From Elusimicrobiota bacterium (GTDB lineage: Bacteria; Elusimicrobiota; Elusimicrobia; F11), in contig JAKLIS010000015.1 in the NCBI GenBank assembly GCA_022709485.1, positions 1 to 12,724 of the forward strand: a stretch of DNA of 12,724 nucleotides. Reading direction: 5' to 3'. The notes under the pieces were generated by a model. It saw only the letters and a program-made list of their open reading frames with translations, made no database searches and was not told the origin of the DNA. Shown piece by piece: positions 8,633 to 12,724 of the stretch (its first letter is position 1; every line of letters starts with the position of its first letter). A program made the translations under genes and the position numbers.

Positions 8633-9625
8633 CGGAGCAGCAGACTTGGCTTTTTGAGCGGCGGCTTTCCGTTTTTCTTCTTCCCGGATGCGGTTTTGGA
8701 TTCCCTTGACGGCCAGATCCAGCTCGTGTTTCACGTCTCCATTTATCTCGGCGGCCAGGTGGTTTTTAAGGGAAGATATGTGGCCCGCTTTTCCGTGGTA
8801 GTGGAAATATTGGGCCGCGAAAAGCCGAACGACGGGATCGGCGGATTCCAGCTTATTCAAAACGGCCGATGAATTTTTATTAACAATCTCCTTCCCGATT
8901 TTCGCCCTTTCCTGAACAAAAGAACTTTTATCCTTCCCCAGGTAATCCATGGCGTCTCCAAAATCATTTTTTTTGGATTGAAGAGCAGCCATCGCCAGAG
9001 CGGTGACCCCCCGGATCTCTTCGTTGCTGTCCTGGGCTAATTTGACGAGTGTGGCAATGGCGTCGGCCTGGCGCAAAAGCCCCATTCCCACGATGGCTTT
9101 AAACCGAAGCGAAAAAACGGGATCCTCGGCGGCGGTTTTTTTAAGAAGGGGAAGCGCGGAGCTCGCGCGGAGCCGAATGAGAGAATCCAAAGCGGCAGAG
9201 CGAACCAAAAGACTTTTGTTTTCGCCGGCTTTGAGGAGCGCTTTGTTTTGACTTCTGATATCCAGCTGACCCAAGGCCCAGGCGGCGCGCTCCTTGACAA
9301 GAACGGGGGTGCCGGGATCGCTCAAAAATTTTGCCAATGCCAATTTCGTTTGGGTGTCGCGCTTTTTTCCTTGGACAGCTTTGTCGATCGATTCAGTGGT
9401 GGGCTCTAGCTTGGCGAAGAGGGGGGAGATAAACAGAATCGTCATTCCTGCGAAAGCAGGAATCCATGAAGAAAATAATTTTTTAATAAAAAGTTTGTTG
9501 CCTGGAATGGCCGCCCATGGGACCATTCTGGCTGGATTCCTGCTTTCGCAGGAATGACGAAACGCGCAGGAATGACGAAACGCGCAGGAATGACGAAACG
9601 CGCGTGAATGACGAATAATTTTCAT
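8624..9625 (-). CDS. HEAT-repeat protein, probably exported, with repeat-derived N-terminus
   Basis: A 333-residue protein. Residues ~85-310 are HEAT-like helical repeats (for example VLVKERAAWALGQLD, LLVRSAALDSLIRL, SLRFKAIVGMGLL, EIRGVTALAMAAL, VVRLFAAQYFHYHG), a solenoid for protein binding. The C-terminus is Lys/Ala-rich (about 310-333). The ATG at 9625 overlaps the recR stop (ATGA), supporting coupling. Residues ~5-62 are encoded by a palindromic repeat element and an 18-base tandem repeat, giving four RHS..AF units, CESRNP and WIPAFAGMT. The stretch KLFIKKLFSSWIPAFAGMTILFISPLFAK (two pieces, about residues 44-72) resembles a signal peptide with a possible cut after PLFA. An internal ATG at 9526 would give a cleaner signal peptide. 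Without the insert the start would read about MKIILFISPLFA. The function is unknown; the genetic link to recR may be only positional. Confidence 0.75.
   Translation of the reverse strand: MKIIRHSRAFRHSCAFRHSCAFRHSCESRNPARMVPWAAIPGNKLFIKKLFSSWIPAFAGMTILFISPLFAKLEPTTESIDKAVQGKKRDTQTKLALAKFLSDPGTPVLVKERAAWALGQLDIRSQNKALLKAGENKSLLVRSAALDSLIRLRASSALPLLKKTAAEDPVFSLRFKAIVGMGLLRQADAIATLVKLAQDSNEEIRGVTALAMAALQSKKNDFGDAMDYLGKDKSSFVQERAKIGKEIVNKNSSAVLNKLESADPVVRLFAAQYFHYHGKAGHISSLKNHLAAEINGDVKHELDLAVKGIQNRIREEEKRKAAAQKAKSAAPKK
9439..9560. repeat. Palindromic element with 28-base inverted repeats inside the HEAT gene
   Basis: Bases 9439-9466 and 9533-9560 are perfect inverted copies, enclosing 66 bases. 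Each arm is itself a hairpin: ATTCCTGC-gaaa-GCAGGAAT (9444-9463) and ATTCCTGC-tttc-GCAGGAAT (9536-9555). I recognise this as the dispersed bacterial repeat whose translations give SCESRNP and WIPAFAGMT. It looks like a MITE-style insertion or paired copies of a small palindrome, and it remains open in the HEAT-gene frame. Confidence 0.85.
9548..9617. repeat. 18-base tandem repeat in the 5' end of the HEAT gene
   Basis: Three identical 18-base units (9548-9565, 9566-9583, 9584-9601; GCAGGAATGACGAAACGC) are followed by a degenerate fourth copy (9602-9617). The period equals six codons, so the minus-strand product repeats RHSCAF. The unit begins in the right arm of the palindromic element, suggesting slippage expansion from its edge. 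Confidence 0.9.
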
Positions 9626-10209
9626 ACTTCCGTCCGGCCTTCGATGGCGCGTGAGATGGTGAGTTCATCGGCGTATTCGATGGCGAGTCCCGAAGGAAGA
9701 CCGTAGGCGAGCCGCGTGATTTTTTTCCCGAGCGGCTGGATAATCTGAGATAAATAGAGGGCGGTGGCTTCGCCTTCAACCGTGGGATTGGTGGCCAAAA
9801 TGACTTCTTCAATTCCCGACTCTTTGGCCAGGCGTTTAATAAGAGGTTCAATGCGAAGTTCCCGAGGCCCCACGCCGTCCAAGGGAGAGAGCGCTCCGCC
9901 CAATAGGTGGTAATGCCCCTTAAAAGCTCCCGATCTTTCCAGGGCTTCCAGATCTCCCATTTCTTCCACGACGCACAAAGATTTTTTTTCGCGGCCATTG
10001 TCGCCGCAGCGCCGGCACGTTTCTGTTTCGGCAAAAACCCCGCAATGAACGCAGCGCTGTAAATTTTTTTTCGCTTCCTCAACCGCTTTTAAGATGCCGG
10101 TGGTTTCATCGGATTTGAGAAGAAAAAGGGCAATCCGTTCCGCCATTTTGGGACCCACGCCCGGAAATTTCCGGATGGCCTGAACCAGATTTTCCCAATA
10201 CTTATTCAT
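9622..10209 (-). CDS. recR: Recombination mediator protein RecR
   Basis: RecR forms a ring with RecO (and RecF) that loads RecA onto SSB-covered gaps for recombinational repair. The 195 residues match the family length of ~198. In order there is a helix-hairpin-helix segment (FPGVGPKMAERIALFLL, 15-31), a C4 zinc motif (C53, C56, C65, C68 in CVHCGVFAETETCRRC), a Toprim domain starting CVVEEMGDLEALE (79-91) with LGGALSPLDGVGP (103-115), and a C-terminal YGLPSGLAIEYADELT (169-184) typical of RecR. The start is the ATG at 10209, which overlaps the dnaX stop by 8 bases (ATGAATAA); longer upstream starts lie inside dnaX and add unrelated sequence. The usual ybaB between dnaX and recR is absent. Its own stop overlaps the next start by 4 bases. 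Confidence 0.96.
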   Translation of the reverse strand: MNKYWENLVQAIRKFPGVGPKMAERIALFLLKSDETTGILKAVEEAKKNLQRCVHCGVFAETETCRRCGDNGREKKSLCVVEEMGDLEALERSGAFKGHYHLLGGALSPLDGVGPRELRIEPLIKRLAKESGIEEVILATNPTVEGEATALYLSQIIQPLGKKITRLAYGLPSGLAIEYADELTISRAIEGRTEV

Positions 10210-12044: not shown

Positions 12045-12073
12045 ATTTTAGTCTTTCGTCGGACGCTTGCCTA
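12045..12073 (-). promoter_or_regulatory. Candidate promoter for the dnaX-recR-HEAT operon
   Basis: Read on the minus strand, TAGGCA (12073-12068) and TAAAAT (12050-12045) are 17 bases apart, matching 4/6 and 5/6 of the sigma70 consensus. Transcription would start near 12038, just upstream of the ATG at 12025 and downstream of the alternative ATG at 12046, which favours the shorter start. A 6-pair hairpin, CGGACG (12060-12065) with CGTCCG (12076-12081), overlaps the -35 box. Confidence 0.35.
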
Positions 12074-12103: not shown

Positions 12104-12169
12104 CCCTGCGGGCTACGGCGGGCAAGCCCAGCCCTCTCCCTGCGGGCACCGGCGGGCAAGCCCAGCCCT
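12104..12169. repeat. 34-base GC-rich tandem repeat, second copy interrupted by IS110
   Basis: Copy 1 occupies 12104-12137. Copy 2 starts at 12138 with only two mismatches and stops matching after 12169. Each copy contains CCCTGCGGGC, CGGCGGGCAAGCC and CAGCCCT. The context (CCCTCACCC at 12088-12096, then CAGCCCTCTCCC) is that of a dispersed REP-like palindromic repeat. In copy 1 the sequence CCCAGCCCTCTCCC (12127-12140) is intact; in copy 2 it is cut to CCCAGCCCT and followed by TGTATGTAC, so copy 2 is the insertion site. Confidence 0.85.
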
Positions 12170-12210
12170 TGTATGTACACTTTTACAGGTGATGCGGCTT
12201 GAATGTATGA

Positions 12211-12355
12211 TTTTCTGGTGTTACAGATCGACCCGCCCTTGACCCCTGCAACGGGAGTCCGTGGGAGAGCAAGAGTCGTAACACCAGGAAAGCTAATAGC
12301 CCGAACAGTTGATAGAACCTCCATCGGAGAGTTCAAATCGAATGCAAGGTTGGGC
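12211..12355 (+). ncRNA. Predicted IS110 bridge RNA with target- and donor-binding loops
   Basis: Bridge RNAs of IS110 elements pair with both target DNA and the element's own ends. The first stem here is 12211-12224 with 12278-12291 (14 pairs, one G-U; core CTGGTGTTAC/GTAACACCAG). It encloses a 53-base internal region with an inner hairpin at 12241-12259. The second stem is GCCCGA (12299-12304) with TTGGGC (12350-12355), enclosing the inner hairpin GAACCTCC-atc-GGAG-a-GTTC (12315-12334). Candidate guides are left target CCCGCCCT (12232-12239), right target GGGAGAG (12263-12269) and right donor ATGCAAGG (12342-12349). Transcript ends are not determined; a 5' portion probably extends into 12178-12210. 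Confidence 0.75.
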
Positions 12356-12364
12356 AGATAAAAA

Positions 12365-12370
12365 GGGAGA
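12365..12370 (+). promoter_or_regulatory. Shine-Dalgarno of the IS110 transposase
   Basis: GGGAGA lies 5 bases before the ATG at 12376 and fixes the transposase start. It follows the last predicted bridge-RNA stem by only nine bases, so RNA folding and transposase translation may interfere with each other. Confidence 0.65.
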
Positions 12371-12375
12371 AAACA

Positions 12376-12724
12376 ATGACACCAATAAAGCCATGGGTTG
12401 GAGTTGATATATCTAAAAGCAGTTTGGAGATTCATATTCGGCCGACGAAAGTATGCTGGGCAACAAACACAACGCCGGGCGAACTGAAAGAACTGTCTAA
12501 GCAACTCAAGGCCATTGATCCCTGGGGTGTCATTCTGGAAGCAAGCGGGGGATGGGAAAAGAGAGTTGTAGAGGCGTTGCGGAAAGAAGATGTGCCTGTC
12601 ATTGTTATCAATCCCCGGCGGATTCGAGACTTTGCCAAAGCGGCTGGGATCTTGGCCAAGACCGACCGTATTGACGCGGCTGTTATTTCTCTGTTTGGAG
12701 AAAAGATGGAACCGGAAGTTCGTG
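12376..12724 (+). CDS. IS110-family DEDD transposase/recombinase, 3' end outside window
   Basis: 116 codons are present and the frame remains open at the window edge. The N-terminal RuvC-like DEDD domain is clear: PWVGVDISKSSLEI with D11, VILEASGGWEKR with E55, INPRRIRDFAKAAGILAKTDRID with D97 and D100. These four acidic residues are the metal-binding set of IS110 recombinases, at nearly the same positions as in IS621. The C-terminal Tnp domain with its catalytic serine would lie outside. The enzyme recombines a circular donor with target DNA at a shared dinucleotide, directed by the bridge RNA. The start at 12376 is supported by its Shine-Dalgarno. Whether the downstream part is intact cannot be seen. 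Confidence 0.95.
   Translation, partial: MTPIKPWVGVDISKSSLEIHIRPTKVCWATNTTPGELKELSKQLKAIDPWGVILEASGGWEKRVVEALRKEDVPVIVINPRRIRDFAKAAGILAKTDRIDAAVISLFGEKMEPEVR

Follow-up and report, generated by a model that had tools for sequence, protein, structure and literature searches.

The window, the whole 12,724-nt stretch analysed here, ends inside an insertion sequence of the IS110 group, the 206-base left end of which very probably encodes a bridge RNA. The stretch belongs to an Elusimicrobiota genome (G000) of 2.1 Mb in 531 contigs that is 85% complete. The element runs off the window, which holds its left non-coding end (nt 12170–12375, plus strand, tip TGTATG) and the first 116 codons of its recombinase gene. 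The right end, absent from the window, was recovered from other contigs of the same genome: the element finishes with the tip ACAGTTG on contig C528, and its right end is also present on C76 and C37 (70 and 53 bases identical). The full element is about 1186 bp plus a CT core, with 206 non-coding bases at the left versus 29 at the right; the longer left end, and the location of the RNA within it, are those of the IS110 group and not of IS1111.

The gene (nt 12376–12724, plus strand, 116 of 316 codons) specifies a DEDD recombinase, in which the N-terminal RuvC-like domain PF01548 (E 1e-11) carries the residues D11 (12406–12408), E55 (12538–12540), D97 (12664–12666) and D100 (12673–12675). A PF02371-type C-terminal Pfam domain is found on C528, and C510 has another that differs from it. 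An initial protein search with the 116-residue piece returned two partial relatives, and the same piece found one distant relative among genome contigs and none among viral contigs. When the window and C528 pieces were joined by 48 X and used as the query, the search returned a 316-aa database protein (P0003) that is identical to the window at 116 of 116 residues and to C528 at 151 of 152. Since P0003 holds both halves of the recombinase, they belong together; it is listed without a source and so may come from the same sample. In the alignment with the IS621 recombinase (E 9.8e-34, 289 residues), D11, E55, D97, D100 and the conserved C-terminal serine (S235 in P0003) fall opposite D11, E60, D102, D105 and S241, the IS621 numbers being those in the available text of PMC11208158, with columns counted by eye and two extra residues assumed at the chain start. 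The genome also carries two other IS110-family transposase domains distinct from that of the window, at C223:121–546 (L009) and C510:492–740 (L012).

Five left junctions (CT/TGTATG, the slash marking the element boundary) and three right junctions (CAGTTG/CTCTCCC) were found in G000. The four left junctions outside the window are on C2, C412, C182 and C132, where 73, 72, 61 and 56 element bases were read, all identical to the window. The left flank ends with CCCGGCCCT at three of the five sites, with CCCGACCCT in C2 and with CCCAGCCCT in the window, while all three right junctions read CACAGTTG followed by CTCTCCC, which is what the right target guide described below predicts. The first-pass annotation had expected the right flank to continue with CTCCC, as it does in every case, and to resume CTCCCTGCGGG, as it does in none of the three, the flanks reading CTCCCTTTGGG, CTCCCACTCGC and CTCCCTTTGGG and none being attributable to the window copy. 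The CTCCC half of the target it proposed, CCCAGCC-CT-CTCCC, is retained, and the left half has to be amended, the commonest natural target being CCCGGCC-CT-CTCCC (three of the five left junctions).

Every copy seen in G000 is interrupted by a contig end, which is why no full copy was read there, and the left target guide does not fit perfectly. Both facts would suit an element that has decayed and lost activity, its RNA having worked in the past, but the parts of the element show no difference among the five left junctions or among the three right ones over the bases read, and the 316-aa frame of P0003 is intact and retains its catalytic residues, so that decay is an unlikely explanation. Searched at the DNA level against 196 genomes, its own among them, the element turned up in none but its own, if matches of 22, 32 and 32 bases in three genomes are disregarded.

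In the window, the occupied target is represented by its left half, CCCAGCC, which together with the CT core (12168–12169) spans nt 12161–12169 (plus strand), and the CT/TGTATG join is common to the other four left junctions. Beside the insertion is a tandem repeat, D1 (12094–12127/12128–12161, plus strand), within which a pattern search located an intact copy of the target site, CCAGCC-CT-CTCCC (12128–12140, plus strand). Intact sites of the pattern CCRRCCCTCTCCC number 26 in G000 and one, two and one in three genomes of the same family, whereas the reversed pattern, used as a control, occurs 0 times in G000 and 0–1 times in the other three. Twenty of the 26 sites were examined in context, within thirteen fetched stretches; 13 are preceded by CCCTCACC, and 18 have GGGAGAGGG, the other arm of a hairpin, at most 52 bases downstream. 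The target is a REP-like hairpin (palindromic) repeat, and the element inserts into its 5' arm. A literature search for the repeat sequence returned nothing apparently related. A long reverse-strand frame that we take to be dnaX starts at 12046, and the window copy of the element lies 123 bases upstream of that start. Elsewhere in the window, minus-strand frames run across a short repeat at 9480–9630 (HSCAFRHSC.. and SWIPAFAGMT-like peptides), which may represent a further type of dispersed palindrome.

Relatives of the element were collected from plasmids (22 loci fetched of 2004 matching records, with 32.7–46.1% identity over the matched N-terminal stretch) and from a survey of the phylum, in which eight of 340 genomes, including its own, carried one, the best being G170 (39% identical). 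In one plasmid locus, L041 from Leptolyngbya, no stop codon interrupts the IS110-like frame over at least 647 codons, up to where the retrieved sequence ends; the frame's annotation names a different transposase family, and it is possibly a fusion.

Upstream of the transposase gene, the left end folds into two consecutive stem-loops, as the first-pass annotation had seen, with a predicted energy of −57.6 kcal/mol (z −2.76; 2 of 200 shuffles equally good). The target-binding stem-loop (12211–12291, plus strand) has its outer stem at 12211–12224/12278–12291, and the donor-binding stem-loop (12299–12355, plus strand) is closed by GCCC (12299–12302) and GGGC (12352–12355). Both, with their internal loops, are homologous to the RNAs of relatives, which are themselves predicted. 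A covariance search had been suggested: no Rfam family scored above threshold (two sub-threshold matches, E 1.8 and 3.4, were judged chance), but a model built from nine relatives, with the window left out and L046 and L053 omitted for their differing loops, matched nt 12216–12355 (plus strand) at E 2.4e-8 in 94,556 bases. Over the whole genome the same match had E 5.5e-7, and the second-best had E 4.6. In the automatic alignment of the nine trimmed relatives the register of the outer stem is off, so the model rests on inner pairs and sequence. It matched 12 of 27 sources; the 15 blanks include the same-phylum transposase loci L025, L026, L027 and L029, and their RNAs, if any, are therefore of another form. 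MAFFT and RNAalifold applied to 12 left ends gave no useful consensus. The compensatory changes proposed for the stems are present in the outer stem of the target loop, where 98.8% of positions pair between an element's own arms versus 40.8% when arms are swapped between elements (ten elements, L046 and L053 left out; up to five pair types per position), figures that are flattered by the picking of the arms by hand. For the donor-loop stem the values are 95% and 85%, and there is too little variation to say much.

Four guide segments, all on the plus strand, can be assigned within this RNA, and the strings and positions that had been quoted at first all proved exact. In the first loop is the left target guide ACCCGCC-CT (12231–12239, register uncertain by one base), in which CCCGCCCT (12232–12239) matches CCAGCCCT on the target top strand (12162–12169) at seven of eight positions; it was placed by guide matching, the comparison between elements given below and a positional null. 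The right target guide, GGGAGAG (12263–12269), is the complement of CT-CTCCC and the exact reverse complement of CTCTCCC at 12134–12140. The second loop has ACAGTTG (12305–12311) on its 5' side, the place expected for the left donor guide in an RNA of the IS621 type; this string repeats the element's right tip on C528 (7/7) and is then followed by AT instead of the core CT (8/10 including the core). These two guides are supported by the right junctions, guide matching and the comparison between elements. The right donor guide, ATGCAAGG (12342–12349), pairs with CCTTGTAT at 12167–12174 through seven Watson–Crick pairs and one G-T. Around the CT core, then, the first loop can pair with the target and the second with the joined element ends, save for flaws in the left target guide: in register 0 it differs from every one of the five insertion sites at positions 1 and 4, and from that of C2 also at position 5, while a shift by one base gives 6/7 to the commonest site but sets TT against the core CT. 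The IS621-like guide logic invoked earlier holds for the right target and the donor tip, and imperfectly for the left target.

When sought over the whole RNA, single guides are weak evidence. Among 2000 shuffles, 95 did as well for the right target guide, 89 for the left donor guide, 393 and 495 for the left target guide (consensus and window sites, respectively) and 600 for the right donor guide. One of four wrong-orientation controls was as good as the true guides (right donor in the same sense, 7/8 at 12198; 92 of 2000), and the remaining three were equalled by 544, 1344 and 1526 shuffles. With the guides held at fixed positions, give or take one base, the target scored 10/12 at the window site and 11/12 at two other sites, and the donor 11.5/12; among 4478 random CT sites, the window target score was reached by one, and those of the two other sites and the donor by none.

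Guides were also compared with the flanks and tips of their own and of other elements, matches being sought over the entire RNA (the best left match falls outside the loop in L036 and L038 at least). Twenty-one loci were entered, namely the window, the G170 element (L024) and 19 plasmid loci. A candidate left tip, CTTG[TC][AG], was seen in 16 of the 20 relatives; nine loci were dropped because one tip or the other could not be located by pattern (L032, L033, L042, L045, L047, L048, L050, L051 and L052), leaving 12 usable. Kept out from the start were L034 and L035 (broken frame), L041 (frame runs on), L013 and L025–L031. The right target guide averaged 6.83 of 7 on its own flanks versus 5.55 on those of others, and the left donor guide 6.75 versus 5.63 on right tips (n = 12; 0 of 10,000 permutations as good in both cases); for the left target guide the means were 5.83 and 5.14 (n = 12; 7 of 10,000). 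The right target guide matches at 6–7 of 7 bases in all 12 elements and at 7 of 7 in nine, while the left match is just 5/7 in the window, L037, L039 and L043, and exact over seven bases in the G170 element. In eight further loci, drawn from those left out, the left target gave 4.6 own versus 3.6 cross (60 of 10,000), with tips picked by eye among ten loci, two of which (L047 and L041) showed no tip; here the left guide is exact over seven bases in L028 (G234, same class) and matches at 3/7 in L032. Where relatives are inserted at other targets, their loops differ accordingly, the opposite of the unchanged loops that would have told against the bridge-RNA reading. In L050, from a Rhizobium etli plasmid, the left core is apparently TT and the right core CT, the left guide carries TT, and the right guide is GGGAGAG as in the window.

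Joining the element ends would bring TTGACA of the right end to within 17 bases of a −10-like TACACT in the left end (12176–12181, plus strand), across the CT core, and this arrangement fits a promoter that is re-made when a circle forms. Inside the left end there is also a promoter-like TTTACA-18-TATGAT (12182–12211; 10/12), which could drive the transposase gene while the element is integrated and from which transcription would start within the first stem. Such a start would suit stem-loops that form a 5' leader controlling translation or transcription of the transposase, with guide matches arising by chance in a GC-rich, repeat-rich region, and the weakness of single whole-RNA matches and the wrong-orientation control that equals the true guides point the same way. 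The covariation of guides and sites over 12 elements, the positional null and the homologous RNAs of relatives argue strongly against this, and such a leader is a very improbable account of the whole, although the stem-loops may have a leader role besides that of guides.

The bridge-RNA reading, for which the junctions, right tip, covariance model and guide-site covariation bear out the first proposal of an RNA-guided IS110 recombinase, suggests the following cycle. The excised circle would join TTGACA to TACACT and so drive transcription of the RNA, the first loop of which would pair with CCCGGCC-CT-CTCCC and the second with ACAGTTG-CT-TGTAT, the sequence formed where the circle is closed; strand exchange at CT by the 316-aa DEDD/serine recombinase would follow. 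The mechanism itself was described in 2024, and the layout of the IS621 bridge RNA is given in the available text of PMC11208160. As far as that text goes, IS621 of E. coli likewise has its RNA in the left end, two guide loops, a CT core, a promoter across the joint (predicted here), a DEDD plus serine recombinase and insertion into REP repeats, and its natural left guide also mismatches at position 4 (rG:dT in IS621). Unlike the present element, IS621 has a different target and a distant recombinase, and its right target guide is reported there as 4 bases, with extension to 7 possible, versus 7 here. The recombinase of ISCro4 (PDB 9t56; E 9.3e-32) is also related by sequence. The ISMno7-annotated L038 and the other plasmid IS110 elements L036, L037, L039, L040, L043, L044 and L049 (37.9–43.5% identity over the matched N-terminal stretch) share a CTTGTA left tip, a right tip of the form A[CT][AG]GnnG-CT and a homologous RNA with the present element, and have other targets and loops, except L037. 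The IS110-type order of guide halves, left then right, is also that of the ISEc21 seekRNA in the accessible portion of PMC11187229, where a shorter region is reported to be sufficient. An IS1111-type element, with its RNA at the right end and subterminal inverted repeats, would have the same transposase superfamily but is practically excluded by this guide order, by non-coding ends of 206 bases at the left and 29 at the right, and by the presence of the RNA in the left end.

The element is thus a well-supported addition to the IS110 group, with a bridge RNA that is predicted and a presumed mechanism that is established; the available parts of PMC11208160 and PMC11208158 already cover the CT core, REP targeting and longer right guides. 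Its earlier description as probably undescribed is consistent with the open-licence literature, in which no title or abstract on it was found. A Cupriavidus element (L037, 43% identical N-terminally) is present twice, each time in a repeat of the kind occupied here, and its right guide is likewise GGGAGAG. It is possible, if rather doubtful, that the right guide leads targeting in this branch while the left is loose, and that distantly related elements (this one and both copies of L037) ended up, in distant bacteria, with hairpin-repeat targets of one kind, CCCTCACCCC..GGCC-CT-CTCCC. The genome offers a naturally matched set of predicted bridge RNA, donor joint, five left and three right junctions and 26 intact pattern sites, which can be used for testing guide rules, in particular the long right guide and the tolerated mismatches of the left.
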